A stretch of DNA of 64,000 bases from contig CAJQUW010006798.1 in NCBI GenBank assembly GCA_907163375.1, positions 62,001 to 126,000 of the forward strand, read 5' to 3'. Under the pieces are notes generated by a model. The model was given only the letters and a program-made list of their open reading frames with translations, had not been told where the DNA came from and did not search any database. The stretch comes from Prostheceraeus crozeri. Taxonomy: Eukaryota; Platyhelminthes; Polycladida; Euryleptidae. The position numbers and the translations under genes are program-made. Of this stretch, positions 24,011 through 43,424 are shown one piece after another. Position 1 is the stretch's first letter, and the number at the start of each line of letters is the position of its first letter.

Positions 24011-24017
24011 AATTATC

Positions 24018-26839: not shown

Positions 26840-26896
26840 TTTGACTGTGAATAATGACTTTGAAATGTTTTCTAATTCTTAAGTATACACAAGCAG

Positions 26897-26970: not shown

Positions 26971-27113
26971 CTGTCTTTGAGACGCATAAGTGAACTGTTC
27001 TCTGACGAATTCTGTATTTGAGGCGTACAAGTGAACTGCTCTTTAGTGAATTCCAAATTTGAGTGAAGTCTCTATCTTGTTGAAGTATCAAGCTTAAACA
27101 TAATTTCGTTCAA

Positions 27114-27303
27114 ATGGTAAGTTGAAAATTTCCTCTCTCATCTCCCTCAAACGTGTGGCTAATAGCATCTTCCTCAATTTCAGGCATCAACTTCATCACC
27201 AACACCCTCCCTTCTCGAGGAAATTTTATAGTTGTTGAGTCAAGGTAGGTTGTAACAATACACTGAGACTTGAACAGAGATGAAAGAATGATTTCTCTTT
27301 CAG
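27114..27303 (+). other. Split start codon and two small introns in front of the polymerase unit
   Basis: ATG at 27114-27116 is followed immediately by GTAAGT. An acceptor ends at 27183 (67-nt intron), the second exon is 27184-27244, a donor GTAGGT is at 27245, and an acceptor CTCTTTCAG ends at 27303. Joined this way, the phase is correct for the zinc-finger frame downstream, but a TAG at 27229-27231 lies in frame in the small exon. The TAG may be a lesion, or the acceptor may be the ATTTTATAG ending at 27231, which would skip it. Confidence 0.55.
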
Positions 27304-28406: not shown

Positions 28407-31099
28407 AAAACTCTAGTAGAGAGTTATATTACTGCGACAGATGTATTCGCCACTTTAGGAGGAAAACTAAATTTGAAACTCATTACGAATGGTGTAAGCG
28501 AGGTAAACTGCAAATGGAGCGCATGCCCAAAGATAAGGAGTTTTCATATAGAGAGAATGGTGATGAACTAAGTCCTCTTCGTGTCATCTATGCTGACATC
28601 GAATGTTATATCGATGATAACATCCATCGACCAGCAGCCATTTCCTGCTATGAAGTATGGCATGATCACTTTAGGAGTAGGCAAAATAAAATGCGCGTCT
28701 GGCAAGGTGAGGATTGTATTTACCAATTCCTACAATTCCTCGAACAGGCTGTAAAATTTCAACAAAAACATGATGGTGAACTCTATCGCAGATCATTGCA
28801 TATGACAGCAGATGATCAAGCAAAATTTGATAGTTGCAACATTTGCCCCAAATGTAGGAAAACATTTGACGATGATAAGATTAAGAAAGTGCGCGACCAT
28901 GATCACATCAATGGTAAATTTAGAAACGCACTCTGTTCAAAATGCAATTTTTCACTTAGGATGAAACGGCGTACATTACCCGTCATTTTCCATAATTTCA
29001 AGGGCTACGACAGCCATATGATAATAAAAGGAGGTTTAGGTCAAATGAAAGAGTGGAAGCTTGATGTAATAGCACAAACGAGAGAGAAGTTTATGGCCAT
29101 GACAGCAAAAGTGCCTGTCGATAAAACTAAAGAAAATAAGACGGTCTACTTTGATATAAAATTTTTAGATTCCTACCAATTTATGACTGCATCACTGGCC
29201 TCTCTCGTGCAAAATCTAAAGTCTCTTCCACTAACACAAAATCTTAAGAAACAATACCCAAATCTAACCGATGAAGTCATCACACGGAAAGGAGTCTTTC
29301 CATATGCATATTTTGATGCAATTAGTAAACTCGGCGAGACTTCTCTTCCGCCCATAGATAAATTTAGAAATGATTTGACCGGTGCAGAATGTAAGACCGA
29401 AGATTATGATCATGCACAAGATGCATGGATAAAATTTGACTGCCATATATTTGGTGAATATATGATTGCCTACCTTAAGTTAGATGTATTTTTGCTGGCT
29501 GATGTATTTCAGGAGTTTCGACGAGTGGCATTAGAAGAAGATAAGTTAGATCCCGTCCACTTTGTCAGTCTGCCAGCCATGTCATTTAAGTCTGCTTTTA
29601 AAATGACTGGTGAGACCATTCATCTCTTACAAGATCCAGAGATGTATAATTTATTTGAGCGAGGAATTCGCGGTGGTCTCACATTTGTAAATAAACATAG
29701 GTTAAAATCAAAAATAGTAGGCAATGACCAGACTCATCTGAAGTATTATGACCAAAATAATTTGTATGGTAGTTCATTATCCAAACCGCTACCTCACTCT
29801 GAGTTTAGCTGGTTAGATGATAGTGATATTCAACATTTCTCCAACCCTTCCAACATACTAGCAATTCCAGATGAAGGTGATTGGGGATATTATTTTGAGA
29901 TAGATCTAATCTATCCAAATAATATTAAACATAAAACCGTAGATTTTCCACTCGCACCCGAATCAGGTGAAGTGAGTAAAGATATGTTTTCCGACTTTAT
30001 GAAACAATTTCATAAAGATTTAGAATCATGTGGACAACCCGACTATAAGCCTTGTCGCAAACTTTTACTCACCCAGTATGATAAAGAAAACTATCTAGTC
30101 CACTTTAGCATCTTAAAATTTTATTTAGAAATGGGTATGATTTTAAAAAGAGTTCACCGCATTATTAAATTTAGACAGAAAGCCTTCCTCAAGCCATATA
30201 TTGATAGCAACAGCCAGAAACGTGCACTAGCCCAAAATAACTTTGAAAAAGATTTTTATAAATATAAGAACAACAGTCTATTTGGTAAGACGATGGAGGA
30301 TGTTAGAAAGCGCGTAAACTACAAACTAGTTAATGATGATCAAAAGTATCACAAATTTACCTCATCACCTCTATTCATCGATAGAGACATTATCGATGAG
30401 GACCTTATAGGTGTTAAAATGATAAAATCTGAAGTTGAGTTGTGCAAACCCATCTATATTGGTCAAGCTGTACTAGATTATTCTAAGCTTGAAATGTACC
30501 AACTCTTTTATAAAATACTAAAACCATGTCCTCTCGTAAAAGAGGTTCGTTTGTTGGGTGGTGATACAGATAGTTTCTTCTTAGGTATTACCACTCAAAA
30601 AGATTTAAATTTCAATGAAGTAGGAAAATCTTTAGAAAGATATTTTGATACATCAAATTATCCTGCTGATCATCCACTCTACTCCATCAAAAATAAGGCA
30701 AAACTTGGCTGCTTTAAGGATGAGACAGCAGGGAAGGAAATAGATGAAATGATTCTCCTCCGTCCAAAAATGTATTCTATGAAATTAAAGGATAGTGATG
30801 ATAGCATTAAGCGCGCTAAAGGCATATCAAAATCCATTGTGCAAAATATGAAACATAAGAATTTCAGGAAAGCCTATAGAAATAAAAATATAACGTTTGT
30901 CAATATGACAATCTTAAAATCTAAGTCGCATGAGATCAAAACTCATACTTTTAGGAAACGGGCGCTTTCAGCATGGGAGGATAAGAGGTGCTGGTTAGAA
31001 CACAACATATCTCTTCCACATGGACATCCTGACACAAACATACCACCACCCAAAAGAATTAAACTCACACTACCACATTCAGGAGACGTCTTAGCATAA
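28358..31099 (+). CDS. polB: Protein-primed family B DNA polymerase (PolB)
   Basis: A 913-residue open frame, the replicase of the element. A Cys/His finger (CDRCIRHF...H...C) lies at residues 26-46. The 3'-5' exonuclease has ExoI YADIECY (about 78-84), ExoII FHNFKGYDSHM (about 211) and ExoIII YLKLDVFLLADVF (about 370). Between ExoI and ExoII sits a zinc/HNH-like insertion (CPKC, then VRDHDHINGKFRN, then CSKCN). Palm motifs are A YDQNNLYGSSL (about 463), B NNSLFGKTMED (about 638) and C GGDTDSFFLG (about 731). All catalytic Asp residues are present. It is protein-primed by family knowledge. The frame is intact from 28358 on, but the natural start probably lies upstream, because the preceding N-terminal frame joins it at 28376-28382. 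Confidence 0.93.
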   Translation: MALCGIPKISRLYHHLENSSRELYYCDRCIRHFRRKTKFETHYEWCKRGKLQMERMPKDKEFSYRENGDELSPLRVIYADIECYIDDNIHRPAAISCYEVWHDHFRSRQNKMRVWQGEDCIYQFLQFLEQAVKFQQKHDGELYRRSLHMTADDQAKFDSCNICPKCRKTFDDDKIKKVRDHDHINGKFRNALCSKCNFSLRMKRRTLPVIFHNFKGYDSHMIIKGGLGQMKEWKLDVIAQTREKFMAMTAKVPVDKTKENKTVYFDIKFLDSYQFMTASLASLVQNLKSLPLTQNLKKQYPNLTDEVITRKGVFPYAYFDAISKLGETSLPPIDKFRNDLTGAECKTEDYDHAQDAWIKFDCHIFGEYMIAYLKLDVFLLADVFQEFRRVALEEDKLDPVHFVSLPAMSFKSAFKMTGETIHLLQDPEMYNLFERGIRGGLTFVNKHRLKSKIVGNDQTHLKYYDQNNLYGSSLSKPLPHSEFSWLDDSDIQHFSNPSNILAIPDEGDWGYYFEIDLIYPNNIKHKTVDFPLAPESGEVSKDMFSDFMKQFHKDLESCGQPDYKPCRKLLLTQYDKENYLVHFSILKFYLEMGMILKRVHRIIKFRQKAFLKPYIDSNSQKRALAQNNFEKDFYKYKNNSLFGKTMEDVRKRVNYKLVNDDQKYHKFTSSPLFIDRDIIDEDLIGVKMIKSEVELCKPIYIGQAVLDYSKLEMYQLFYKILKPCPLVKEVRLLGGDTDSFFLGITTQKDLNFNEVGKSLERYFDTSNYPADHPLYSIKNKAKLGCFKDETAGKEIDEMILLRPKMYSMKLKDSDDSIKRAKGISKSIVQNMKHKNFRKAYRNKNITFVNMTILKSKSHEIKTHTFRKRALSAWEDKRCWLEHNISLPHGHPDTNIPPPKRIKLTLPHSGDVLA
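28376..28382 (+). promoter_or_regulatory. Candidate -1 frameshift heptamer C CCA AAA
   Basis: In the upstream frame the codons are TTC CCA AAA, so CCCAAAA fits X-XXY-YYZ exactly. A one-base backward slip enters the polymerase frame, and the upstream frame stops 22 nt later. A perfect 6-bp hairpin (AACTCT/AGAGTT, 28409-28425, 5-nt loop) lies downstream, but 26 nt away, farther than usual. A simple one-base indel is the alternative. Confidence 0.45.
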
Positions 31100-31304
31100 T
31101 CATCCTTAACTTAGTATTTTGATGTTGATTTCTGTAGATAAACATTGTTGTTTTATGTATCGCATGAGATTGTTTTTTCCTTGTGAATATGTGTCCACAT
31201 CTGTACATTCCCCATGTGATGACTTTTCCACTGAAAGACATTTTTCCTATCCCTGTATATTTCCACCCTTCACGAAGTAAAAAGACTTTTTGTATATAAC
31301 AATG

Positions 31305-31389
31305 TTTATTGAAGTGCGCTCATGTATATATTTTCAGTGGATGTTGTATAAAGTCTGTTGCTTCACATTCATGTACATATTTCAATAAA
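31305..31389. terminator. Convergent polyadenylation signals
   Basis: AATAAA on plus at 31384-31389 serves the polymerase unit. TTTATT at 31305-31310 is AATAAA for the minus-strand unit ending at 31405. The two units overlap tail to tail by about 80 bp. The 31100-31404 stretch is otherwise non-coding. Confidence 0.65.
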
Positions 31390-31404
31390 CATATCACAAT
31401 GACT

Positions 31405-31737
31405 TCACTTTGTTTTCCGAAACACTAACGTTATGAGGGATTTAGTATCTTTCACATGGATGCACTCTTGTAAACCATTGATAATTTTGATAGCAATAGA
31501 GGGTATAGTTTGTTTGACGACGGGATGATAGAAAATAGATTCAAACATCTTCTCGACTATTCCATATGAAGCGTCTTTATCATGAATGAAATCACGTAAA
31601 ATGTATTCTTTTTTCTCACCAACAGAAATAGGTAGAATCAAATCACTTTGAATGTAAAGGTGCTGTTCATGTTTATCAAGTGTCATTGGTGTTTCTATAC
31701 CAATCGTATGCGCAGCAGCAAACACTGTTTGTAGCAT
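31405..31737 (-). pseudogene. C-terminal part of the 31676-32923 protein, out of frame
   Basis: 110 residues that align with the last 110 of the neighbouring paralogue: an LYIQSDLI/FQIYSNI block with VGEK/VGDV, a P(S/Q)IAIKI/IDIAI block, and a final SLITLVFR/SITLHFR. It therefore belongs to the upstream gene, displaced by one base near the A-run around 31751-31757. Whether this is a genomic indel, a sequence error or recoding cannot be told here. Confidence 0.7.
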
Positions 31738-32923
31738 TGAAAAACCAGAGTTTTTTCAAATTTTTACTCAATTGACATTGAATGTCATCACCCAGTCTCA
31801 GAACAACGCGTTGATTTTCAATTGAAAACGAAATGTGGTGTGTCTTTACATCATATTTACTTTTCATCACATGCTTCAACTTCTGTTGTATATAAGGATT
31901 TACTACATGAATGAAGCTTTCAACTGTATGATACAGACGCGGCATTATATTGATAGCAACTTTAGATTCTTCATAAGACTGGTAAATTTTCTTGATGCGA
32001 TCGCCATAGATGTCCACCCACCATTCATCATTAACTGAATCAGCTTTAGTGTGATATTCATGAGAAGCATACACCACACCGCTTCCAATAATAGGTGTAT
32101 AATGTCTTACAAAATGACGCAAGGTTGGAGAGAAATAAACTGTAAGTTTGTCATTATATTTCTGAATAACCAACTTATTTTTGTCCGCCATAATTTTTTC
32201 TCCATACTTCTTACCCACAGTCTCATTCCATCGTTTTACTAATTCAATAAGTGATAAAGGTTGAACACCACGCTTTTTCAAAATGATGCGTTCTTCGCAT
32301 TCTACAACATCTTCATCAAATATTTTAAATCTATAATGAAATTTGTTGATTCGATTTGAATAAACTTTTCTAACATTTGCAGTAGCAATTGACGTTAGAT
32401 GTAGTCCATGGCCAAAACCAACATGCGGATAGAATTCACTATCCAACCTCATCGTAAGACCTTTAGTAAAAGAATGAAAGCGGAGGAACTGTCTCCCACT
32501 CCAATGATAGATAGTAAACTCATAAGCTTTCTGATTTTTATTCTTCATGATGGAAGTATTACCACTGTTGAATGCCTTAATAATTTTCTCATTCCCAAAT
32601 GGCTCATAAGAATCTGATTTTATCTGAATCCATTCATAGTTCCATTTTCCATCTGATGTTAAATTGTATGGGAACTGGAATGCATTATTCATCATTATTC
32701 CATCATGGGTGCGAGGAGTCAATATCATTTCTTCCAAATCATTCACATTCTGAATATTGCTATCATAGCAAATACTAGAAACGCCAACCTCCCATTCACC
32801 TTCTAAATGCAGTGGCCGATTTAATTCTACTCGATAGTCTGATGGTTTATTTTTGGGAAATTTATTCATAGAAGCATTACTGGGCAAGTAGATTAGAAAC
32901 GAGTCCTTATTTTCACTTTCCAT
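31676..32923 (-). CDS. Conserved Polinton protein A with L-x-G-x-WEVGV motif (probable virion component)
   Basis: ATGs stand at 32953 and 32923. I prefer 32923 (MESENKDSF) because ATGCAAA lies 40 nt upstream, as for other late genes. Near the N-terminus the protein has LEGEWEVGVSSI, a hallmark of a large protein found in many animal Polintons. Its neighbour 32963-34360 is a full-length paralogue. A role as minor capsid or spike-like protein is inferred from size, conservation and co-orientation with virion genes; I cannot assign a fold. The frame ends early at 31676 and the real C-terminus continues in another frame. Confidence 0.7.
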   Translation of the reverse strand: MESENKDSFLIYLPSNASMNKFPKNKPSDYRVELNRPLHLEGEWEVGVSSICYDSNIQNVNDLEEMILTPRTHDGIMMNNAFQFPYNLTSDGKWNYEWIQIKSDSYEPFGNEKIIKAFNSGNTSIMKNKNQKAYEFTIYHWSGRQFLRFHSFTKGLTMRLDSEFYPHVGFGHGLHLTSIATANVRKVYSNRINKFHYRFKIFDEDVVECEERIILKKRGVQPLSLIELVKRWNETVGKKYGEKIMADKNKLVIQKYNDKLTVYFSPTLRHFVRHYTPIIGSGVVYASHEYHTKADSVNDEWWVDIYGDRIKKIYQSYEESKVAINIMPRLYHTVESFIHVVNPYIQQKLKHVMKSKYDVKTHHISFSIENQRVVLRLGDDIQCQLSKNLKKLWFFNATNSVCCCAYDWYRNTNDT

Positions 32924-32962
32924 ATTATTCACATTGGAAAAATATAATAGCATACTTTTGCA

Positions 32963-34360
32963 TTAACTCTTCATTCGGAAATGGAGTGTAATACTTGTCA
33001 CAGCATCTTTATGAAAAGGAATCAACGCACCAGCATCATCATAAATTGCAATATCAATTTGTGGGATGTAGTTTGATTTCAGCTTTGTATAATGCACTTT
33101 CTTGAAAGTATGCTCAGATAAAATACTGCAGCTTTTTGGCTGGTATGGTATCATTGCTAGCAATGGAGCTTCAACATCTCCCACACGTACATCTTCACCA
33201 ATATTGGAATATATCTGAAAATAGTTAATACGACGCGATAGCGACATGTCTGCGCTAGCTTTGGTTACAGTACCACTTTTAAAGATATTTTGATCAAAAC
33301 CCAAAATGTCCATTAGAGTTTTATCCATAATTAGTTCAATACCTTTTCCATTTATAGTGAGAGACAAAGTACCTTCTTTTTCAGAAAATGAAATATGTTG
33401 CTCATTAATCACTTCATTTAAACAATCTACAACCAATTTAACCGAAGTAATAATGCGAGGCATCAACACTCTTGTTTCATGTAAGAAACCACCAAAAGGC
33501 TCTACACACTTTCTGTATAAAGATACGGCCCATTCTGTATCAAATTGATTTGGCCTTTCACATGGTAAATGTTGCATATCAGATTTTCCATGAACAGCTG
33601 CAGAACGATGTCGTAAGAACTGATGAAAATCTTTTGAACAAACTAATACTAGATCATCATCATTTAATTTGCTTATTGCAATATGATTAGATGATTTGAT
33701 ATAAGTCAATGTTGCCACTTGTTTGCCATCAACTCGAAGGAGATAATTAAATTTCTTCAATAATGTTTCAGGAGTCATGTTTGTCTTTCTTGGCTTAATC
33801 ACTATCTTCTTCACCAACGTCTTCTCATTTCTTGGAATAAGATCTACATAATAAGCTTCCTCTCGATATATTAACTGTTTATGACCACTTATGTGGTAAT
33901 TAACGTTAAAATTATCATAGCTTGTTAAGGCGCTAGCGAGGTAGCCTAAATCATATCTTAAACTTGGACTTAAACCAACAATCCAATCTTTCTCAACTAC
34001 ATGATGTACATAATTATAATCATCATTGTGCGGAGTAAATTGGACAATATGTTTACACGCTTTATTCAAGAAATCATATATAAACTTTTTACATGATAAG
34101 AGATCTTTCTTTGACCACTGTGGAATGTATACTCGGCACCCCTTTTCACATTGATAAGCAGCTGTACGCCTCATATTAATAGTCATCACCTCATGATCAA
34201 AAGTATAGACACAGTTGCTATAAACAAGTTGAGTGACACCCACTTCCCAATTTCCATTTAGCTGTTGTACATGATCAATGGGAGTAGAAAAGAGTGCGGC
34301 TCGATTACTAGTAAATCTCTTTGTAGCCGCATTGCTAAGCAAAATATGATAAAACGACAT
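32963..34360 (-). CDS. Conserved Polinton protein B with L-x-G-x-WEVGV motif (probable virion component)
   Basis: From ATG 34360 (MSFYHILLSN) this is about 465 residues, intact. It contains LNGNWEVGVTQL near residue 35, a C-terminal FQIYSN...VGDVEAPLLAMIP block and the ending DAVTSITLHFRMKS, all shared with the 31676 gene, so the pair arose by duplication. ATGCAAA stands 29 nt upstream. The divergent PC4-like gene starts only 35 bp away. The virion role is inferred from family context; no enzyme motif is visible. Confidence 0.75.
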   Translation of the reverse strand: MSFYHILLSNAATKRFTSNRAALFSTPIDHVQQLNGNWEVGVTQLVYSNCVYTFDHEVMTINMRRTAAYQCEKGCRVYIPQWSKKDLLSCKKFIYDFLNKACKHIVQFTPHNDDYNYVHHVVEKDWIVGLSPSLRYDLGYLASALTSYDNFNVNYHISGHKQLIYREEAYYVDLIPRNEKTLVKKIVIKPRKTNMTPETLLKKFNYLLRVDGKQVATLTYIKSSNHIAISKLNDDDLVLVCSKDFHQFLRHRSAAVHGKSDMQHLPCERPNQFDTEWAVSLYRKCVEPFGGFLHETRVLMPRIITSVKLVVDCLNEVINEQHISFSEKEGTLSLTINGKGIELIMDKTLMDILGFDQNIFKSGTVTKASADMSLSRRINYFQIYSNIGEDVRVGDVEAPLLAMIPYQPKSCSILSEHTFKKVHYTKLKSNYIPQIDIAIYDDAGALIPFHKDAVTSITLHFRMKS

Positions 34361-34382
34361 TTTTATATTGCTAATCTGCAAC

Positions 34383-34389
34383 TTTGCAT
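34383..34389 (-). promoter_or_regulatory. ATGCAAA late-promoter candidate (protein B)
   Basis: Minus-strand ATGCAAAGTTG, 29 nt before ATG 34360, inside the 35-bp divergent intergenic space. Confidence 0.5.
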
Positions 34390-34395
34390 AACATC

Positions 34396-34752
34396 ATGAA
34401 GACCTGGATTTTGGACTCTCTACAATATATCAGAGTTGATCGTGATGGAAACGTACATTTCAAAAATTCTCATGGTCATACATCAAGAGGAATTACATTA
34501 ACATGGCGACAATTTGTCAACCTCAATGATATCATGAGGGATTTGGAATATTTTGAAACATTAAGATTCATCTCCTTGGGTGATCAAGTTTGGCTTCAAC
34601 ATTACAGAAATGAAATTCAAATCTACCATTCTCATTCCGCAAACTGTTTCTCATTTCGCAAATACAATTGGGAGAAGTATAGAAGATATATACATCGCTC
34701 CATCATGACATTTATTCGTCGTGAGTTCATCGCCCTACTATGCAAATCTTAA
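34396..34752 (+). CDS. PC4-like protein 1 (putative)
   Basis: ATG 34396, 118 residues. The pattern SLQYIRVDRDGNVHFKNSHG followed by RGITLTWRQFVNL and a helix resembles the beta-sheet plus helix of the PC4/p15 single-stranded-DNA-binding coactivator fold; this is inference from pattern, not a firm match. It is about half identical in layout to the next gene, so it is a tandem duplicate. It is divergent from protein B with 35 bp between start codons. Confidence 0.5.
   Translation: MKTWILDSLQYIRVDRDGNVHFKNSHGHTSRGITLTWRQFVNLNDIMRDLEYFETLRFISLGDQVWLQHYRNEIQIYHSHSANCFSFRKYNWEKYRRYIHRSIMTFIRREFIALLCKS
34740..34747 (+). promoter_or_regulatory. ATGCAAAT octamer upstream of PC4-like protein 2
   Basis: Perfect octamer on the plus strand, 35 nt before ATG 34775, same sense as the gene. 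Confidence 0.55.
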
Positions 34753-34774
34753 TCAGACATGACTACCACACATC

Positions 34775-35425
34775 ATGAGTTGGAAATTAGATTCCCTACA
34801 ACGTATTGAAACGGATCATGATCGAAACGTCTATTTCAAAGATTCAACTGGAAATGTGAGAAGAGAGTTTGCTTTATCTTATCGTCATTTTCAATCTCTA
34901 CATCATATCATGAAGGACTTGAAATACTTCTATATGAAAAGACATTCACGTATTGGAAATCGCATCTGGCTGCGCGTCAACAATCGGCGAATTCAACTCT
35001 ATCATTCCCAACTTCATACTAACTTCACATTTCATCAAGGTAGTTGGGAAAAGTATAAAAGGAAGGTACATCGCTCAATTTACTCATTCTTTCATCATGA
35101 AGCGCCATCGCTACACCATCGTCAACATTCTCCGTCGCTTCAGACTCTACACCAAAATCGATCTCACAACATTACACCAACAGCTTCCAAACAGCAAGTA
35201 TTACCCGGGCCGTCCTCAAATGTTAGTGGTGAAGATGAACAATTCACGAAATCTTCAACTCTTCCCAAATGGGACTGTACAGATTCTCGGCGCCCTTTCT
35301 CATTCATCGGCGCAGTCAATGCGCTTAGAGCTACAAAGACTACTACGTCGGATATGGAAGAGGGAGAGGTGTGTGATGTCGAATCTGACTGTGGACAATA
35401 TGGTGATCTCTACTCAATTGAGTGA
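34775..35425 (+). CDS. PC4-like protein 2 (putative), with C-terminal extension overlapping the TBP-like gene
   Basis: ATG 34775. Residues 1-110 parallel the 34396 gene (LDSLQRIETDHDRNVYFKD; REFALSYRHF; a WEKYKRKVHRSI end). Residues 111-216 have no counterpart in that paralogue and lie out of frame over the first 330 bp of the TBP-like gene at 35097. They are Ser/Thr/Gln-rich with an acidic end (EEGEVCDVESD). Either a real dual-coded tail or a lost stop. The function may be ssDNA binding or transcription, inferred from the fold resemblance and the TBP-like neighbour. Confidence 0.5.
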   Translation: MSWKLDSLQRIETDHDRNVYFKDSTGNVRREFALSYRHFQSLHHIMKDLKYFYMKRHSRIGNRIWLRVNNRRIQLYHSQLHTNFTFHQGSWEKYKRKVHRSIYSFFHHEAPSLHHRQHSPSLQTLHQNRSHNITPTASKQQVLPGPSSNVSGEDEQFTKSSTLPKWDCTDSRRPFSFIGAVNALRATKTTTSDMEEGEVCDVESDCGQYGDLYSIE

Positions 35426-35642
35426 CAGTCTATCATTTTTGAAGATTCGTACCAGCAGTTACAGTTTGTGTTATGAACCCGAACTTTTTCCTGCAGCTCT
35501 CATTAGTTGTTGGTTACCTGTGCATGTGGCAATCTTTCATAATAGTAAAGTGATCATTACTGGACTAAAATCTCATGTACAAGCAAATATGATCCTAGAC
35601 TATCTCATTGAGTATGCACGTACCCAGCGGATTGTAAAATAA
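35097..35642 (+). CDS. TATA-binding-protein-like protein (TBP fold)
   Basis: From ATG 35097 this is 181 residues, the size of the bare TBP core. Two direct repeats of the TBP saddle are visible. Repeat 1 has KIDLTTL, NSKYYPGRPQMLVVKM, then LQLFPNGTVQILGA. Repeat 2 has VDNMVISTQL, then YEPELFPAALI, then VAIFHNSKVIITGLKS. The YEPELFP block and the two [LI]FxxxKV-x2-[TL]G strands are the signature of TBP. Of the four DNA-kinking Phe positions, three appear kept, while the first (after PxR) is Pro. A TATAAAAG lies about 42 nt upstream. The stop codon overlaps AATAAA (35638-35643). It would give the element its own promoter-recognition factor; that role is inference. Confidence 0.82.
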   Translation: MKRHRYTIVNILRRFRLYTKIDLTTLHQQLPNSKYYPGRPQMLVVKMNNSRNLQLFPNGTVQILGALSHSSAQSMRLELQRLLRRIWKRERCVMSNLTVDNMVISTQLSDSLSFLKIRTSSYSLCYEPELFPAALISCWLPVHVAIFHNSKVIITGLKSHVQANMILDYLIEYARTQRIVK

Positions 35643-35672
35643 AAAACAATTTTTCCAACATGATGTTTTTAT
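35638..35672. terminator. Back-to-back polyadenylation signals overlapping two stop codons
   Basis: The plus AATAAA at 35638-35643 contains the TBP-like gene's TAA. The minus AATAAA (TTTATT at 35667-35672) contains the protease TAA. Only 26 bp separate the convergent genes. Confidence 0.8.
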
Positions 35673-36130
35673 TTCAAATCATGATAGAACTTACAAATCA
35701 TTTTTTCATTAGAGGATGGATTACATGAAAAGTTTTGAATAATAGATGCAAATCGAGATACATGTAAACGTTTTAAGATGAAGTACAGTACAAAAGCACC
35801 ACACGTTGATGAAAGTGGATGTTGTAGTATGCGTTCATTTCGCTGATATTGACGCGTATGTTTTCTCAACCACTGCTGTGTTGGTATATTTGGAGGTTGA
35901 GCAAGAGAGTCAAATAGTTCACCACGTCGGTCTTCTCCAATAAAGATCGCTTTCCAATGCTCACCGCCTAAATTCTGTGAATGAGTGTTTAGCACAATAA
36001 AGATGGGATAGTGATTTACTGCAGGTGGTAAGGTATCGAGTGAATAGACATTATCGAAAGCTTTCAACGTCGCTTCGTCTGCATTACGCTGCACTTTAGT
36101 CTTAATATCGTCAGCAGTCAACCAACTCAT
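35669..36130 (-). CDS. Adenain-type cysteine protease
   Basis: 153 residues of the adenovirus-protease (C5/Ulp1-like) fold. The catalytic His is in GGEHWKAIF (about residue 58), an acidic/FDS segment follows, then Gln in ILQHPLSSTCGAFVLYF with the nucleophile Cys. The family matures capsid proteins during assembly. Its ATG overlaps the capsid gene stop (TAATG), which suggests coupled translation. Last gene of the long minus-strand block. Confidence 0.92.
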   Translation of the reverse strand: MSWLTADDIKTKVQRNADEATLKAFDNVYSLDTLPPAVNHYPIFIVLNTHSQNLGGEHWKAIFIGEDRRGELFDSLAQPPNIPTQQWLRKHTRQYQRNERILQHPLSSTCGAFVLYFILKRLHVSRFASIIQNFSCNPSSNEKMICKFYHDLK

Positions 36131-37407
36131 TAACGATTATACTGAAGAATCACGTCACGATACTTTGTAATTTCAATATTTGAATCGAAGACTGCATAAA
36201 TTAATACATTGATCGTCTCAGGTAGTGTTCTTTTGAACGTCAAATCCAAACGAATATTATGAGGCACGTTCGCTTGACGATAGGGTGCACTAATATCGCT
36301 GTCAGCAGTCAAATCAAATGCATAAATAGTATATCCACTCTTAAACTCTTTCATAGTCAGTCCGTTGGTGTCATCCGTATTGTAAAAGCCAAAAACATCC
36401 ATAAAATCAACATAACTGCGCATAAATTGATCCGAAGCAAAATCTGGTTTGTAGGGTGGACCAGGATGACTCACACCATTTACACGTAAAGCAATTTCAC
36501 TTAACTGATTGTGTTTAAAATTGAAAGGATTCTTCTTTATATTACCATTAAATGCATCATTTTCAACCATTGCCACCATGAGGAGCTTCGGTGCTTCCGA
36601 TGGAAAGAGGCCATCTTTCATGAAACTCTTTTGATCTTTCGGAATTGTAAAGGTGAGAAGCTTTGTATGCTGAATGGGGTAAATGGCATTTTGGCGGTTA
36701 AGGCCTTCAGCATGCCCTCTAATGACACTTGGATTCGGTACTACTCGACGAATGTAAAGTGCAATATCTTCCACATGAATTCTAAAATTGTCAACTTTAG
36801 CAAATACATTCAGCGCAAATTCAGGCTTATTCAATGTCAGCTTGAGTCGCATGCTGGTATTACACAGTAAAAACTTTGACTGTCTAAAGAAGTCTAAATT
36901 CAGCGGACCATATAGCTGACATACTCTACTATCTTTAATCATAGCAGATCGCTTTACAAAGCCACTGTTTGTTTCAACATCAAATTTTCCTGCTTCATCT
37001 CTGTACCATCCCATGGCTTCCATATGACTTTTTTGTGCTGCTGGATGAAACTGTGATACATGATTGAAATATGATTTATAGGGATAATCGCCTTGACCAC
37101 CTTCCACTTGCTGCTCTCCAATCGTTAGAGAAACATCACGAAGTAATGTAGTCAATGGTAAATTGTTCAGTCCAACTTTATGTGCATCGTCAATAGCAGT
37201 TCCATCTGCTTGCTGAATTCTAAACCTCAAATCAAGCATCGCATAACTCAAATCTATGTAGTCATCACTACCACAAGGAATAACAAATTCAATGGGGCCA
37301 GCATTCTCAGCTGTTCGAGGATGATAATCTACAATACTTGAACTAAGAATATCTGTCTGTATGGCTTGTTGATCGAACAAACAAAAACCGGAAGTTTTAC
37401 ACTCCAT
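36130..37407 (-). CDS. Major capsid protein candidate (F54H12.2-like)
   Basis: 425 residues from ATG 37407 (MECKTSGFCLFD). Conserved landmarks are the N-terminal QTDILSS segment, FVIPCGSDDYIDLSY, a GQGDYPYKSYFNH segment, an IQHTKLLTFTIPKD segment, and a C-terminal IRLDLTFKRTLPETINVLIY segment. These are shared with the Polinton/adintovirus capsid family, annotated in many animal genomes as F54H12.2-like. It sits between the basic core protein and the protease, the usual morphogenesis order. The capsid role is from family knowledge. It is intact, ending one base into the protease start. Confidence 0.85.
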   Translation of the reverse strand: MECKTSGFCLFDQQAIQTDILSSSIVDYHPRTAENAGPIEFVIPCGSDDYIDLSYAMLDLRFRIQQADGTAIDDAHKVGLNNLPLTTLLRDVSLTIGEQQVEGGQGDYPYKSYFNHVSQFHPAAQKSHMEAMGWYRDEAGKFDVETNSGFVKRSAMIKDSRVCQLYGPLNLDFFRQSKFLLCNTSMRLKLTLNKPEFALNVFAKVDNFRIHVEDIALYIRRVVPNPSVIRGHAEGLNRQNAIYPIQHTKLLTFTIPKDQKSFMKDGLFPSEAPKLLMVAMVENDAFNGNIKKNPFNFKHNQLSEIALRVNGVSHPGPPYKPDFASDQFMRSYVDFMDVFGFYNTDDTNGLTMKEFKSGYTIYAFDLTADSDISAPYRQANVPHNIRLDLTFKRTLPETINVLIYAVFDSNIEITKYRDVILQYNR

Positions 37408-37409
37408 GA

Positions 37410-37865
37410 TTAGAAGTTATAGCAGCGTCGTCGTTTAGCGCCTGATGAATGATTAGAGCCTCTGCGACGTTTGCATGAATGCCTTTTGACTGAAGATCGC
37501 ACCTTACCAGCTCCGCGATGTTTCCTCCTTCCTTTATTCATTCGTTTAGGTGATTTCTTTCCTTGAGTAACACCAGCAATGGTCTGCTTCAATGTTTTTA
37601 AACCGCGTTCCTTCCCACGATTCAACAAACTGCTCTTAAAACTTCTACCTCTGGAAAGATCACTAGCAACATCACCAGCAAAGCCAACGGCATTACTTAA
37701 AACATTTCGTTTTAAAGATCTACCGACATTGGATATGAGAGGTGCTACAACAGATTTCAGTGCACCAAGTATGCTACCTCCACGTTGGCGGCGAGCACCG
37801 ATGTAAATTTGTCCTCCGCCACTTACATAGGAGGGTCGTGAATAAAATGAGGCAGTTGGATTCAT
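37410..37865 (-). CDS. Basic core/pX-like virion protein
   Basis: 151 residues. The N-terminal third has QRGGSILGALKSVVAPLI, a GG-site followed by an amphipathic segment as in adenovirus/adintovirus core and pX-like proteins. The C-terminal 50 residues are dominated by Lys/Arg (KKSPKRMNKGRRKHRG, RRRGSNHSSGAKRRR), which suits DNA condensation. Two bp separate it from the capsid gene. The GG dipeptide could be cut by the protease encoded nearby (inference). Confidence 0.75.
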   Translation of the reverse strand: MNPTASFYSRPSYVSGGGQIYIGARRQRGGSILGALKSVVAPLISNVGRSLKRNVLSNAVGFAGDVASDLSRGRSFKSSLLNRGKERGLKTLKQTIAGVTQGKKSPKRMNKGRRKHRGAGKVRSSVKRHSCKRRRGSNHSSGAKRRRCYNF

Positions 37866-37896
37866 AGCTCAAACCCTAAACATTGTTAGTTACAAC

Positions 37897-37903
37897 TTTG
37901 CAT
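37897..37903 (-). promoter_or_regulatory. ATGCAAA late-promoter candidate (core protein)
   Basis: Minus-strand TTCATGCAAAGTTG, 38 nt before ATG 37865. The 11-bp ATGCAAAGTTG also precedes protein B. Confidence 0.5.
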
Positions 37904-37906
37904 GAA

Positions 37907-38995
37907 TCACTGTCGATCACTTAGATGAAAGATGTCGGCACGACGCATCCAAGAGTTCATACTTGAAGGATAACCAGTCCATTTAACAAGACACCATTCT
38001 TCACCTTGCCGTTTTTTACATCGAATGATTTTCTCTACCAAATATGTTTCACTTTCAGTGACTACCTCAATCTCATCGCGGTAAAAGCTACCCTCAATTT
38101 CTTCATTATCGTAATCTTTCAACTTGTAGGTGGTCGGAGAGTCTTTTTGATTAATCCTTGATACTGTAAATACCTCCTCTGTCCAATTCGGAAGGTACCC
38201 TTTAGCAAAAACACTTTTCACTTTTGAGATACGAACTTTATCGCCAATTTTCACATCACTTTTCACATGAGTGCGTTTACGTTGGAATGATTCGCGCACT
38301 TTATCTACATTGTCAGCATTTACATCTACTGGTCTGAGTCCAATAGAACGATGGATAGAGTGATTGTAGGCATGGAGTGTATCTTGTAGAACCTTTGTCC
38401 AATTTTGTGTCAAGTTGGCAGTAAAATGTCGCCACAAGCGATTTTTTAATGTGCGATTAAAACGTTCAACGAGTGCAGCTTTATAAGCGCTCTTTACACT
38501 AAACAACTCAATGTCATGCCTCTCAAATAATCTTGTCACATGCTGATTTTCAAACTCTTTTCCTTGATCACTCTGAATTCTTTTTGGAATGCGACCTTCT
38601 CGAAAAATTGTTTGGAATGCTTTTGCTACTCCTTTCCCTTCTTTAGTTTTTAAAGGTTGAGCCCACGCATAACGCGAGAAAATATCAATGACGGTTAAAA
38701 TAAAATTATTGCCCGAGTTATGTTTTGAAATGGAGGCAACATCACACAAATCTGCTTGCCACTGTTCATCGATGTCATGAACAATATAATGGCGGGTGCG
38801 GTACTTCTTTTTCGCTTGTTTGTGGAGTGTATAGGTAGCCTGACCCTTTAACCATCGTTTCACTTGTGATTGTGGAAGACCACTCGCTTTTGATAATTTC
38901 TTGATAGATGCAAATCCTGCCGGATGTTTTACATCATAATAGATTGACTTCAAACGTTCAGTCGATGACGGCTGACTCTTTTTCCTCCTTCTCAT
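37907..38995 (-). CDS. Polinton integrase with chromodomain
   Basis: I choose ATG 38995 (MRRRKKSQPS), because the frame above it (to 39127) is low-quality sequence overlapping another gene. An N-terminal helix-turn-helix-like zone (GFASIKKLSKASGLPQSQVK) comes first. The DDE core has Asp in WQADLCDV, Asp in IQSDQGKEFEN and Glu in ALVERFNRTLKNRL. An SH3-like C-terminal region follows, then a chromodomain (YLVEKIIRCKKRQGEEWCLV, then KWTGYPSSMNSW). It joins element ends to host DNA with a 6-bp stagger. The frame is intact, consistent with the observed duplication. Confidence 0.93.
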   Translation of the reverse strand: MRRRKKSQPSSTERLKSIYYDVKHPAGFASIKKLSKASGLPQSQVKRWLKGQATYTLHKQAKKKYRTRHYIVHDIDEQWQADLCDVASISKHNSGNNFILTVIDIFSRYAWAQPLKTKEGKGVAKAFQTIFREGRIPKRIQSDQGKEFENQHVTRLFERHDIELFSVKSAYKAALVERFNRTLKNRLWRHFTANLTQNWTKVLQDTLHAYNHSIHRSIGLRPVDVNADNVDKVRESFQRKRTHVKSDVKIGDKVRISKVKSVFAKGYLPNWTEEVFTVSRINQKDSPTTYKLKDYDNEEIEGSFYRDEIEVVTESETYLVEKIIRCKKRQGEEWCLVKWTGYPSSMNSWMRRADIFHLSDRQ

Positions 38996-39173
38996 CTTTT
39001 TGTTTTCTTGCCTTTCTACATTTACAACAACTGCAGCATTTAGCTTTAGCGGTTTTGCGATCGTGTTCACATTGCTTAGGGGTTTCATTATGAGAGATGG
39101 CGCAGCAAGTGCAAGTGACAACGACATTCACCTCTGGCGGCTCATTACATGGTAAGCAACACATCTGCTTCAT
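38958..39173 (-). CDS. Small Cys-rich (RING-like) protein, 71 aa
   Basis: ATG 39173 is two bases after the preceding stop. About 14 Cys/His are packed into residues 5-54 (MCCLPC; CTCCAISH; CEHD; CCSCCKC), with a basic-acidic tail (KARKQKDEKEEKES). It overlaps the chosen integrase start by 38 bp. It may bind zinc; no clear RING order can be fixed. It could be a genuine small gene because start spacing and Cys density are unlikely by chance, but expression is unproven. Confidence 0.5.
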   Translation of the reverse strand: MKQMCCLPCNEPPEVNVVVTCTCCAISHNETPKQCEHDRKTAKAKCCSCCKCRKARKQKDEKEEKESAVID

Positions 39174-39174
39174 A

Positions 39175-39867
39175 TTAATAGTCTGAGAACATGTATTTCC
39201 TAGGAGGAGCTGTTTTACGTTTTCCTTTTACCAGTTTTAGTGGCGATGTAGATCTACGTCGAGTTCTTCCTCTTGTTTGCTTAGTGAGTGTGGGAGGGGA
39301 TGTAGCAGGTGACGTCTTAAACCAATTTGTTGGCATTTTCATCGCCTGAGGCATTGGAGTAGTAGCCACTGTTGAATCAAGTTCTTTCAATGTCTCATTA
39401 TTTAAAGCAAATTTTGGTACATTATGCTTTTTCAATAGTTTAAGAAAGTATGACCAACCAGGTGGAACATAGCCCTGACGGCGCTTTCTACGTGTCGCAT
39501 ACTGAATCAAGTCTTCATAACGTGAAGCATCAATCACTTTATTTTCATCTGTAATGATTTCTCCTCTATCATTTACATTGAGATGGGGCTCAATACTGTT
39601 GAAAAGAGATATGGCATGTGCGCGAGATGCTAAAGGTGTAGCAGTCGATACAGAGTCACGCATCTTATTCTTCAAGTTTTTCAATTGCTCAACAGTTTCC
39701 GATTGTAATAATACAGCACGATGTGGATCTTTGATGTGAACATTTTGCTGATAATCTATTTCTTTCCTATACATTTGATTTGCAAGAGGTTGCTTTACTT
39801 GCTGCATGGCAGTCAATTGTACATATTCATCCTGAGGAATAACAATCATGCGAGAATAAGAACTCAT
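39175..39867 (-). CDS. Unknown Polinton protein, probable virion-associated, 230 aa
   Basis: ATG 39867 overlaps the ATPase stop (ATGA). The N-terminus is MSSYSRMIVIPQDEYVQL. The middle has helical segments and a folded block GYVPPGWSYFLKLLKKHN (about residues 135-153). The C-terminal 50 residues are Ser/Thr/Pro/Arg-rich (TRGRTRRRSTSPLK). A protein with this place and shape next to the packaging ATPase recurs in animal Polintons. I do not know its function. Confidence 0.7.
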   Translation of the reverse strand: MSSYSRMIVIPQDEYVQLTAMQQVKQPLANQMYRKEIDYQQNVHIKDPHRAVLLQSETVEQLKNLKNKMRDSVSTATPLASRAHAISLFNSIEPHLNVNDRGEIITDENKVIDASRYEDLIQYATRRKRRQGYVPPGWSYFLKLLKKHNVPKFALNNETLKELDSTVATTPMPQAMKMPTNWFKTSPATSPPTLTKQTRGRTRRRSTSPLKLVKGKRKTAPPRKYMFSDY

Positions 39868-40481
39868 AGTTTGTAGATAATCATGGGAGTTTTCAAAATA
39901 TCACTTCGAAATCTAAATTCTTCCGGACACTCTTGCGTAAAGTCAATGAATAAGTAACCGTATGGTTTTTCAGTAGCTGCTTGAAAAATTTCAATTAAGG
40001 CTTTTGATCCTCTGGGTGCAACTTGTCGCGCTAAAATTTCAAATTGACTTTTATCTCGCGGATTCTTGAAAATAGCATAATAGTGTGTATTCAGGTCTCG
40101 TGTACGAGCTTCTTTTCCATCAGGAAACAAATTTTGTGTAATATAGATGATAAAACACCTTTTATGGTGTGCTGCGCGAGTGAACATATCTGTAACATCT
40201 TTTGAATTCTTACTTTCTTTTAATAAATCATCCAATACAACAACATCATTAGACTGAAGTTTATCCACTGGAATAATTCCTTCATGTCGAATAAAGTTGC
40301 GACTTTGCAATTCCTGAAACAGCGACGGTTGATAAATACCATAACACCAAATCACTCGATTGATAGGTTCCTTAAACAACTCCCTTCTTTTATCCAATAA
40401 ATTCAGCGTGAAAACAGTTTTACCTGCATGAGATGGACCTGATACAGTCAGAACTTTATCACATTGAAGTCTGAAATCCAT
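39864..40481 (-). CDS. A32/FtsK-HerA-type genome packaging ATPase
   Basis: From ATG 40481 (MDFRLQCDKVL), 205 residues. Walker A is GPSHAGKT (about residues 14-21), Walker B is VVVLDDLL, and a sensor-like YITQNLFP follows. The size and order fit the Polinton/adintovirus packaging ATPase, which pumps DNA into capsids. A perfect ATGCAAAT octamer lies 29 nt upstream in the 31-bp gap after the 40513 gene. Confidence 0.9.
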   Translation of the reverse strand: MDFRLQCDKVLTVSGPSHAGKTVFTLNLLDKRRELFKEPINRVIWCYGIYQPSLFQELQSRNFIRHEGIIPVDKLQSNDVVVLDDLLKESKNSKDVTDMFTRAAHHKRCFIIYITQNLFPDGKEARTRDLNTHYYAIFKNPRDKSQFEILARQVAPRGSKALIEIFQAATEKPYGYLFIDFTQECPEEFRFRSDILKTPMIIYKL

Positions 40482-40502
40482 TTTATTACTTTGAGATTCA
40501 AC

Positions 40503-40510
40503 ATTTGCAT
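40503..40510 (-). promoter_or_regulatory. ATGCAAAT octamer upstream of the packaging ATPase
   Basis: Perfect minus-strand octamer, 29 nt before ATG 40481, in a short intergenic gap. Confidence 0.55.
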
Positions 40511-40512
40511 AA

Positions 40513-40869
40513 TTAACGCTTAGAGCCAAAGATATTACCCAATAGGTTGCCCACGGCAGGAGCTATCATTGGAAGTATTGCTGAAAGGAAACCGCCCTTT
40601 TGTGTTAGAGTTTTCCTCTTTCTTTGAAGGGCGACTTTAGGATTGGAGATGAAACGCAATTTCGTAGCATATCGCTTAAGTAACTTTCGTTGTTTTGGCG
40701 CTAATTTCTTCGTCCTCAACTTCCTCACATGAGAAATAATTTCACAAATGAATTTATCGTTGGCATGTCGTATAGCATTGTATCGCTGATTTGCTTTCAT
40801 TCGTCGGAGAGCTTGAATGGCTGAAGAAAACTTTTGACTTTTACGTTTCGTCATTTTACGTTTCGCCAT
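40513..40869 (-). CDS. Short basic protein with GG site and hydrophobic tail (pX/pVI-like)
   Basis: 118 residues. The first 85 are Lys/Arg-rich and helical. Then TQKGG is followed by FLSAILPMIAPAVGNLLG, an amphipathic membrane-active-type tail. This basic-GG-amphipathic layout matches small virion proteins of adeno- and adintoviruses, where protease cleavage frees a lytic peptide; applying it here is inference. It shares Q-[RK]-GG with the 37410 protein. Confidence 0.72.
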   Translation of the reverse strand: MAKRKMTKRKSQKFSSAIQALRRMKANQRYNAIRHANDKFICEIISHVRKLRTKKLAPKQRKLLKRYATKLRFISNPKVALQRKRKTLTQKGGFLSAILPMIAPAVGNLLGNIFGSKR

Positions 40870-40907
40870 TTTCCGTGTTAGTCTTTGCTAAAACCTATCT
40901 TTACCAC

Positions 40908-40915
40908 ATTTGCAT
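40908..40915 (-). promoter_or_regulatory. ATGCAAAT octamer upstream of the 40513-40869 gene
   Basis: Perfect minus-strand octamer 46 nt before ATG 40869. Confidence 0.55.
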
Positions 40916-40920
40916 AGGTA

Positions 40921-41244
40921 CTAACTATTGCGACATAAGTGACACTCGAAATGAGCAATATCACAGTGGTTACATTGGCAAAGTTGAATGCAATGACGTA
41001 TGAAACAGCGTTGACAAAAAGCATGCTTACATCTCTTGAAGATGCGCTTTTCATTTCCATCCTTTCGCTTACATACATCGCAACACATAGTTTCACCGTT
41101 ACTGATGTCTATAGCAAGTCTTTTTGAAGATATGAATTTGCTAGCCTTTTCTAAATAATAGACGCATGTACAGAAGGAATATACTTCGAGAGTGAGCAGA
41201 CATAGCTCGAAAACCAGTTGTGCTACAATCAAGTACCACTGCAT
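40921..41244 (-). CDS. Membrane-anchored RING-like zinc-finger protein
   Basis: ATG 41244, four nt after the upstream stop. Residues 3-30 are a hydrophobic segment (WYLIVAQLVFELCLLTLEVY), probably a signal anchor. The C-terminal half has CCDVCKRKD, then CKHAFCQRCFIRHC, then CQCNHC, then CHLC: eight or more ligands in RING-like order (C-x2-C, C-x-H-x2-C-x2-C). It may be a viral ubiquitin ligase, which would be a host-modifying role; inference only. Confidence 0.6.
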   Translation of the reverse strand: MQWYLIVAQLVFELCLLTLEVYSFCTCVYYLEKASKFISSKRLAIDISNGETMCCDVCKRKDGNEKRIFKRCKHAFCQRCFIRHCIQLCQCNHCDIAHFECHLCRNS

Positions 41245-41246
41245 TT

Positions 41247-41657
41247 TCAATTTTTCTTTATGGAAAGTTGAATGTGAATATCTGAAATCGCTTCAATCAC
41301 TAGACTGCTACCATGATGGTTAAATGCGTTAAGACGTTCAGCAATTTTTATCATATGTCTTTTAAAAAATTCTTGGGGGTGATCTACCACTTCCATTGAA
41401 TAAGAAGCAAAATGGAAAGAGCGACTTTCCACCTCTTCCTTTCCAAAATGACTAAACTTAATTTTCGCAACTAATCGCGCCATGATAATGCTATCAGAGA
41501 ATGTATTCATTAACTCTAGAAATAGAGTGCTAGCATCATCGACCACTGCTTCGATGTCGGTCTCATCTTTATGAAATTTTATCACATAATCTTGAACAGC
41601 TCCTTTTAAACTTTGCCTATGAAAACGTAATGTTCCGCAGTCGTTTGAGAAAGACAT
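41247..41657 (-). CDS. Stand-alone paralogue of the PolB N-terminal domain, 136 aa
   Basis: ATG 41657, preceded by ATGCAA 31 nt upstream. The protein aligns along its last 90 residues with the region after the zinc fingers in the 27288 frame: both have LF-x2-L, a K-I-K-[FY] strand, an [LF]HF/FHI-x-[SP]-x2-x-[EM]-EVVD turn, and an F...GS/DSGLV[IF][ED][AG]I pattern ending in [KQ][IL]S[LI]. It is therefore a free-standing copy of that domain. Function unknown; perhaps interaction with the replication protein. Confidence 0.68.
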   Translation of the reverse strand: MSFSNDCGTLRFHRQSLKGAVQDYVIKFHKDETDIEAVVDDASTLFLELMNTFSDSIIMARLVAKIKFSHFGKEEVESRSFHFASYSMEVVDHPQEFFKRHMIKIAERLNAFNHHGSSLVIEAISDIHIQLSIKKN

Positions 41658-41716
41658 GATCGCCCTTTATCTAACCCATCCATTGCATGAAAACAACAAC
41701 TCTTCTCATAGTAACA

Positions 41717-41722
41717 TTTATT
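41717..41722 (-). terminator. Polyadenylation signal after the exonuclease-like gene
   Basis: TTTATT, i.e. minus-strand AATAAA, 23 nt beyond the stop at 41745. It separates an early block (43258-41745) from the downstream block that starts at 41657. Confidence 0.6.
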
Positions 41723-41744
41723 GAATAATGGTAACAAGCATGCA

Positions 41745-42290
41745 TTATAAATCAATGGTTTGAAAGAGATAAAATAGATACAGCTGGTAACTATCATACA
41801 GCGAGCAATGATAACCATACAGGACTTTGGCAGTGTTGAGGTAAGGAGGAAAGAAGCATTGGTTATGAACGTAGCTACTACAACGAACAGACAAAATAGG
41901 AACACACAAATCCTTAAAACGTTTCGTGACTTCATGATAATGTTGATTCACTCTACTATCCCAAGGCGGGAGCAAAATATCATCAATGATTAGATTGGGA
42001 AATACTTTCCTCTCCTTACCAGGATTATTACAAAAGATGCGTATAACATTGAAAGCAGCTAACCATCGTTTAAAGTCAATAAGAGCACTCTCACAAGAAA
42101 AGCCATAGTCTTGCAAATATTTCAGATTAAGTCCATGAATGTGTTTTCTCGCCCATTGATCAACATTGGGATCGCAGTTGGCATGTTGATGATAGACACT
42201 AACAATCTGATATGTCCAATTGTTCATAGCAATAGCACTGAGCTCCTGTACAGGTTCACCCTCACAATCCATAAAAATGATGATAGAAGC
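41745..42290 (-). CDS. DEDD (DnaQ/TREX-like) exonuclease candidate
   Basis: In-frame ATG at 42272, but an acceptor CCGTTTTAG ending at 42291 would start an exon GCTTCT at 42290, and joined to the leader ATG (43256-43258) the frame is kept. ExoI-like D-C-E-G (hydrophobic strand IIIFMDCEGEPVQELSAI) carries the D-x-E pair. Next come ARKHIHGL, an IRIFCNNPGKE strand, and HEVTKRFKDLCVP with a late H...D. The ending has SSYVHNQ and GYHCSLYDS. The order suits an RNase H-fold 3'-5' exonuclease, though ExoII/III are not certain. Probable early gene for DNA processing. Confidence 0.55.
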   Translation of the reverse strand, partial: ASIIIFMDCEGEPVQELSAIAMNNWTYQIVSVYHQHANCDPNVDQWARKHIHGLNLKYLQDYGFSCESALIDFKRWLAAFNVIRIFCNNPGKERKVFPNLIIDDILLPPWDSRVNQHYHEVTKRFKDLCVPILSVRCSSYVHNQCFFPPYLNTAKVLYGYHCSLYDSYQLYLFYLFQTIDL

Positions 42291-42324
42291 CTAAAACGGA
42301 AATTTACACATCTAAGGAAGCGTT

Positions 42325-42525
42325 CTATAACATATTACAAAATGAAGAATTACATCGATGCTTTTCACGACAAAATACACAAATGATATGATGGCAACGA
42401 AGAAGTAAAATGTATCTAATAAGACCACGTCTACGACACTCAAAGCACATAAGCGAATTGTCATAGGGTAGAGTTAGGAAAGGGCTAGTAATTCTCCTTC
42501 TTTGATTTGCGTTTTGATGTAGCAT
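42325..42525 (-). CDS. Small RING-like Cys-rich protein, 66 aa
   Basis: ATG 42525 (MLHQNANQRRR), or an internal Met at MCFEC. Ligands: CFEC, CHHIICVFC, then H/C pairs in EKHRCNSSFC, which reads as C-x2-C-x11-C-x-H-x3-C-x2-C-x3-H-x-C-x4-C, close to a compact RING. It overlaps the end of the 42485 gene by 41 bp. The third small Cys-rich protein of this element. Expression unproven. Confidence 0.5.
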   Translation of the reverse strand: MLHQNANQRRRITSPFLTLPYDNSLMCFECRRRGLIRYILLLRCHHIICVFCREKHRCNSSFCNML

Positions 42526-43189: not shown

Positions 43190-43255
43190 CTGAAAATAAA
43201 AAAGATTGTATTAAGTTTACGTTCAAGGGAGGAGAGGGAGGGAAGTAGCGACTTA

Positions 43256-43258
43256 CCA
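43256..43258 (-). other. Leader-exon start codon ATG|GTAAGT
   Basis: The start codon is the last three bases of the first exon, which begins near 43336 (81 nt). The same layout occurs at 27114-27116. Acceptors at 43190 and 42291 both keep frame from this ATG. Confidence 0.65.
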
Positions 43259-43335
43259 TTTTAGTTGGATAATAGAACAGGGAACTAGAGAGAGAGAAAA
43301 TGTGCGTCCGTCACTCGTGTGATTCAACGATGGAA

Positions 43336-43407: not shown

Positions 43408-43424
43408 ACAATAACATCAAGCTG

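Follow-up and report, generated by a model that had tools for sequence, protein, structure and literature searches.

The window (the whole stretch of 64,000 nucleotides analysed here) contains a Polinton that almost certainly encodes a real and conserved TATA-binding protein (TBP). By homology, fold, conservation and selection, the open reading frame (ORF) at 35097..35642 is a genuine TBP, though a strongly diverged one. A Polinton-encoded homologue had been proposed at this place in an initial annotation made from the letters alone, and profile matches, predicted fold, relatives and selection bear the proposal out. The element and its main genes are as follows.

21036..44068 (.), whole element of ~23 kb, with terminal inverted repeats and 5'-AG
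28358..31099 (+), presumed PolB of the protein-primed type, carrying an endonuclease VII domain (Endonuclease_7, E 7e-6)
34396..34752 (+), PUR-like gene copy 1, with a predicted PUR-alpha repeats I-II / PC4-like fold
34775..35425 (+), PUR-like gene copy 2 (44% identity with copy 1), its tail overlapping the TBP gene by 329 nt in another frame
35097..35642 (+), TBP homologue, 181 aa, two lobes, an intact ORF that starts at its earliest in-frame ATG
35669..36130 (-), Ulp1/adenain-like protease (Peptidase_C48, E 1.3e-3; Peptidase_C5, E 0.044; both under the Pfam cut-off)
36130..37407 (-), presumed major capsid protein (by gene order; 491 relatives)
37907..39127 (-), rve integrase with chromodomain (Pfam, E 1.3e-10 and 6.4e-7)
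39864..40481 (-), weak A32-like packaging ATPase (Pox_A32, E 0.02, under the cut-off)

The TBP gene and its relatives

The 181-residue product matches the Pfam TBP family (PF00352) in two stretches with an E-value of 9.2e-20 and 70.7 bits (curated cut-off 22.9), and phmmer returned 35 matches in the PDB (best E 5.3e-12), 34 of them named as TBP, TFIID or TBP fusions and the remaining one named only ECU04_1440. TBP models were also matched in NCBIfam, where the best score, 64.6 bits, lies below the equivalog/subfamily cut-off of 181 (these models being for prokaryotes); PHROGs gave no match to the protein. The predicted structure is the two-repeat saddle along the full length, least certain in residues 121-140 (pLDDT block means 66 and 52), where the acidic stirrup is located. 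The YEPELFP motif and three of the four DNA-kinking phenylalanines noticed initially are present (F56, F131 and F147, the first being replaced by Pro40 in the alignment from the phmmer PDB matches), while the two [LI]F-x3-KV strands reduce to a single exact one, IFHNSKV, the lobe-1 strand reading LFPNGTV.

Residue conservation was followed in 43 aligned rows, comprising the window protein and 42 of 61 database relatives. Pro40, Phe56, Phe131 and Phe147 are invariant (43/43 each), as are Asn101, Val103 and Thr155 of lobe 2, and the lobe-1 Thr position is occupied by Leu (39 rows), Met (3) or Phe (1). The lobe-1 stirrup position that we take to be the TFIIA-contacting Glu site of cellular TBP holds Lys in 34 rows, Val in 4, Arg in 3, and Thr and Asn in one each. 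The stirrup glutamates C.L3.2 (E127) and C.L3.4 (E129) are kept in 42/43 and 43/43 rows, respectively (positions of PMC7221094, mapped via our alignment). The family thus lacks the full set of four kinking phenylalanines and the putative TFIIA-contact Glu of canonical cellular TBP, and has the TFIIB Glu pair. Among all 61 relatives, the pattern RP.[MV] is found in 57 and E.[ED].FP in 59. The replacement of the first kinking phenylalanine by Pro may alter DNA bending.

The 61 relatives were found in the protein database at E up to 1e-3, and all have the TBP domain. Four TBP-bearing element families are present in the genome: F1, the family of the window, of which L049 represents a 79%-identical branch; F2, with many copies; F3 (L012, L013 and L015); and F4 (L018, a broken copy). 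The gene adjoins protease-like and capsid-like ORFs in F1, F3 and F4 copies and lies near a polymerase-like gene in F2. In a tree of 32 Polinton-type and five cellular TBP-type rows, the Polinton-type ones, four from this genome and 28 database proteins with genomic context unread, fall on one side of a branch and the cellular ones on the other (support 100/99). The F2 and F3 proteins cluster (98/94) separately from F1, so that TBP was probably already in their common ancestor. The gene appears to have been retained long in the Polinton lineage and not to be a stray capture. Recent capture of the host TBP was ruled out, the host protein being only 23% identical.

The gene found in related elements is also under purifying selection. 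Between L001 and L049, dS is 0.46 and dN 0.12 (ratio 0.25; Fisher P 4e-9 on rounded counts), and among young copies pN/pS is 0.40 (13 F1 copies, L047 and L059 being left out for their other length) and 0.46 (20 F2 rows, L031 among them); L060, in which no start was found, was dropped before the counts.

Beyond this genome, some relatives come from contigs of equal size, pairing TBP P0002 with PUR-like P0184 at 1771 nt, TBP P0013 with capsid P0152 at 7106 nt, capsid P0064 with PUR-like P0186 at 11119 nt, and capsid P0063 with PUR-like P0183 at 12876 nt. With 120 of the 491 capsid relatives listed for this comparison, the equal sizes hint at linkage of these genes in other samples, any single match possibly being chance. 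The NCBI entry for P0064 places it in a Pseudomonadota MAG (AAGK05_12265), perhaps through contamination of a bacterial bin by an animal element. A few exact peptide patterns found no TBP or capsid loci in IMG/VR and GTDB contigs, collections perhaps poor in animal elements, which is no evidence of absence.

The element, its copies and the PUR-like neighbours

The element combines an rve integrase, terminal inverted repeats and a 6-bp target-site duplication, as Polintons/Mavericks do. The duplication is imperfect (flanks ACCGTT and ACCATT, five of six bases equal); the ends start with AGTAGTAAGC, the right arm being about 0.65 kb and the left longer through internal repeats. An Adeno_PX match under the Pfam cut-off also lies inside the element. 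We take the 28358..31099 product to be a putative protein-primed PolB by a sequence motif, and no PolB match was found for it in Pfam, PHROGs, the PDB or NCBIfam. The 36130..37407 product, which by gene order we presume to be the major capsid protein, has no named domain and no PDB sequence match, and capsid occurs in no name among the 120 listed of its 491 relatives. Adjacent genes of 425 and 465 aa at 31676-34360 have in common an N-terminal LLSN/LPSN...WEVGV motif and may have arisen by duplication of a minor capsid or penton gene. Two repeat arrays were also seen: a tandem array at 25337-26342 with a period of about 206 nt and copies 93 to 99.5% identical, and 305-nt tandem repeats at 22071-23310 that have sequence in common with the terminal inverted repeat.

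In the genome (2.05 Gb, 14,165 contigs) a 26-base marker of TBP has 4,880 occurrences and one of the capsid gene, also of 26 bases, has 5,278, against none for the reversed control. At 18 of the 20 first-listed TBP places, compared by eye, the capsid marker lies 837-843 bases off on the opposite strand, so TBP travels with the element. Over 3.5 kb, seven further copies share 98.8 to 99.7% identity with that of the window. The Polinton burst is very large and recent (about 5,000 marker sites, with 99% identity among the copies compared). In the F2 copy C4205 (L062, L065 and L066), TBP, PUR-like, PolB-like and zinc-finger genes are present; no capsid match was found across three stretches of about 25.7 kb, and the copy is possibly a capsid-less Polinton or a truncated one.

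The tandem PUR-like genes upstream of TBP may encode PUR-alpha/PC4-like single-strand-DNA-binding proteins, as suggested by a predicted structure with the PUR repeat fold; Pfam gave no PUR or PC4 match for the pair (34396-35110). The tail of copy 2 (35097-35425) is probably an overprinted gene. It stays open to TBP nt 326-332 in 15/16 F1 rows, to nt 338 in 17/20 F2 rows and to nt 305 in 2/3 F3 rows, and is shortened in 5 of 39 rows (L015, L024, L034, L037 and L043); in a synonymous-codon simulation with one open row per family, such an open tail had P values of 3.5e-4 to 2.7e-3. A drop in TBP synonymous change inside the overlap was not clearly seen (dS 0.44 overlapped, 0.51 not), the alternate frame of copy 2 having dN 0.14 and dS 0.20 there, and the argument for overprinting is therefore drawn from the open-frame test.

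Promoter-like sites and the role of the protein

Three exact TATA/initiator promoters had been proposed for the element; one or two TATA sites do stand at gene starts, and the rest of the three could not be placed. Exact TATAAAA occurs at seven sites in 22001-44000, of which one is 43 nt 5' of TBP and another at -7 relative to the 32963-34360 gene, and TATAAA is found at -46 of the 24018 ORF. The site before TBP is

35054..35061 (+), TATAAAAG, 43 nt 5' of the TBP ATG, within the upstream coding frame

TATAAA lies at about the same place before TBP in 17/20 F2 rows and 3/3 F3 rows (-46 in L061); the single F4 copy has none within 60 nt of the TBP start. TATAAAAG is no rare sequence over the window, with 2 occurrences against 3.7 expected, and since it is read in the upstream coding frame (partly as Tyr-Lys-Arg) its conservation may be partly coding. 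Its equal position in three families (F1, F2 and F3) makes it a candidate TATA box of the TBP gene.

A separate octamer-like promoter class, suggested in the initial annotation, proved real by position. ATGCAAA is found in 6 of 19 upstream windows, and random placement reached even five in none of 20,000 trials. It ranks first of 12,457 distinct 7-mers in uneven placement (P 3e-7 before correction), occurs antisense in one upstream window and in none of 19 windows just inside genes, and is not enriched over the whole window (21 found, 22.9 expected). The 20-kb core has nine sites, seven of them at gene starts if that at 32957 is counted:

32957..32963 (-), ATGCAAA adjoining the 31676-32953 gene start, so close that it falls outside the counted window
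34383..34389 (-), ATGCAAA 5' of the 32963-34360 gene, between divergent starts
34740..34746 (+), ATGCAAA 5' of PUR-like copy 2
37470..37476 (-), ATGCAAA 69 nt 5' of the presumed major capsid gene
37897..37903 (-), ATGCAAA 5' of the 37410-37865 gene
40504..40510 (-), ATGCAAA 5' of the ATPase gene
40909..40915 (-), ATGCAAA 5' of the 40513-40869 gene

In F1b, ATGCAAA is found again at the starts of the 31676, 32963 and PUR-2 genes, and reversed before PUR-1. The F2 stretch has 0 sites in its 9.9 kb, and none was seen at the F3 gene starts checked. A motif common to all families is unsupported by F2, and F3 has AAGCAA instead, in 5/12 windows, a post hoc pick tied with TATTCT; 3/12 of these windows sat at non-ATG points (GTT, ATT and TTA).

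We think it probable that the TBP is kept as the element's own core-promoter factor, working with host TFIIB and Pol II. The protein would bind a TATA-like site mainly via lobe 2 and pass the complex on to host TFIIB and Pol II, escaping TFIIA and N-lobe regulators. The host TBP would drive its initial expression from the TATA box of its gene, and the product would then switch on the (T)ATGCAAA genes, aided by the neighbouring PUR-alpha/PC4-like proteins. The 27 Pfam queries (25 core ORFs, that is, every ORF of at least 100 aa in 24018-43000, TBP included; one left-repeat ORF; and one read-through stretch) returned neither a TFIIB nor a polymerase domain, and from this we infer use of host TFIIB and Pol II; a diverged TFIIB could have escaped Pfam, as the element's presumed DNA polymerase did. 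That element transcription is served by this TBP with host TFIIB is likely, the target site, partner binding and timing being those we infer. Recognition of its own promoters by the element would be in keeping with the initial proposal, which gains in specificity from the ATGCAAA class and from the changes conserved in lobe 1. Against this explanation, the motif lies in the counted window of only 6/19 genes.

A tentative reading, to which we lean less, is that the TBP has an altered specificity, recognizing TATGCAAA-type promoters and bringing in host TFIIB and Pol II. TATGCAAA corresponds to a TATA box in which G-C replaces the two central pairs. In cellular TBP the lobe-1 Thr and the Asn pair touch the central base pairs of TATA, and the Thr-to-Leu change in lobe 1 would fit altered central pairs in TATGCAAA. 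Recognition of TATGCAAA is a guess; if true, an animal mobile element would possess an early-to-late switch comparable to a sigma factor, and the sequence that the protein reads would have shifted along with it from family to family (ATGCAAA in F1, AAGCAA in F3).

It is rather unlikely that the protein, though a true TBP paralogue, just boosts basal TATA transcription while ATGCAAA is read by a host POU-domain factor. Three of the seven gene-start sites read ATGCAAAT, which is also the host POU octamer; however, the other four deviate, ending in G, G, C or A, and the post hoc AAGCAA at several matching F3 starts is not an octamer. Interference with the host, in which the protein would compete for TFIIB or promoters and shut down host transcription in the element's favour, is less probable still. 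Retention of the TFIIB-contact glutamates and change at the lobe-1 position presumed to contact TFIIA would suit it (surface roles from PMC7221094), but the counted lobe-2 DNA contacts are fully conserved, which a pure decoy would not need, and the window element has a promoter-like motif of its own. A minor-groove DNA binder serving replication, genome packaging or integration rather than transcription seems very improbable: in copy C4205 both TBP and a PolB-like gene are retained with no capsid match in about 25.7 kb, but this copy may simply be incomplete, and the conserved acidic stirrup is not known outside TFIIB-type contacts (PMC7221094). Lastly, chance or decay producing a mere resemblance to TBP, for which one might cite the 329-nt overlap with another open frame and the absence of the window's own TBP from the 61 database matches, is ruled out by profile, fold and selection, with the 61 relatives and four families also contradicting it, and keeps next to no probability.

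Comparison with known systems

Compared with cellular TBPs (PDB 1cdw, 1ytb and 2z8u; host TBP G000:C9306, L009/L011), the Polinton protein has the same full-length two-lobe saddle, kinking phenylalanines 2-4, lobe-2 Asn, Val and Thr, and TFIIB glutamates, at 21-27% identity of the window protein to five cellular rows. It differs in having Pro for the first kinking Phe, in the loss of the lobe-1 Thr, in Lys/Arg for Glu at the presumed TFIIA position (37/43), and in being a bare core, whereas cellular TBP has a long N-terminal region. The same genome has another divergent paralogue of TRF2/TBPL1 type (L010/L017, C3829), but this is a host gene, on a long branch on the cellular side of the tree. 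We take L010/L017 to be the host TBPL1/TRF2 copy, which suggests a bilaterian host; a stop lies within part of its matched stretch.

With Polintons/Mavericks and adintoviruses, the element has in common the rve-chromo integrase, the terminal inverted repeats with 5'-AG and the 6-bp duplication, as well as the adenain-like protease and A32-like ATPase, both under cut-off. It differs from the standard ones in carrying TBP with PUR-like genes, which to our knowledge are absent from the standard gene list, and we know of no Polinton with an RNA polymerase. No Polinton TBP is reported in the accessible parts of the Polinton/Maverick/adintovirus literature on TBP or TATA (PMC10675990, PMC12220804, PMC10132985, PMC11464507, PMC12085832 and PMC7786948), an earlier mention in PMC8502044 being possible.

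TBPs are also encoded by large dsDNA viruses (Nucleocytoviricota, mirusviruses and CpV-BQ1), and the Polinton protein has fold matches in BFVD, at most 20% identical among the 50 matches listed. TBP is a mirusvirus core gene present in 59% of genomes (PMC10132985), putative mirusvirus elements in a green alga sporadically contain TATA-binding proteins (PMC10675990), and Megavirus chilensis has a TBP along with a viral TFIIB. CpV-BQ1 has a TBP and two TFIIB, by which its authors propose that host polymerase is redirected (PMC12085832), so this idea is not new for viruses. According to PMC7221094, two stirrup glutamates (C.L3.2 and C.L3.4) contact TFIIB, viral TBPs have lost the host N-lobe signature, C.L3.2 is retained in about 40% of them, and viral TBPs are mostly accompanied by a viral TFIIB. 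The Polinton family, in contrast, retains C.L3.2 in 42/43 rows with no TFIIB found in the scanned ORFs, in an element of 23 kb and not a giant genome.

Published viral TBPs are thus mostly part of an independent set with viral TFIIB (PMC7221094), and the Polinton family looks like the opposite: its design seems to be to bring the promoter-recognition piece alone and to plug it into host TFIIB and Pol II. This could explain the timing of gene expression in Polintons and the way in which a transposon evades control of its promoters by the host. The family also offers a natural TBP series in which the fixed change from Phe to Pro and the loss of the lobe-1 Thr are paired with a candidate new target site.
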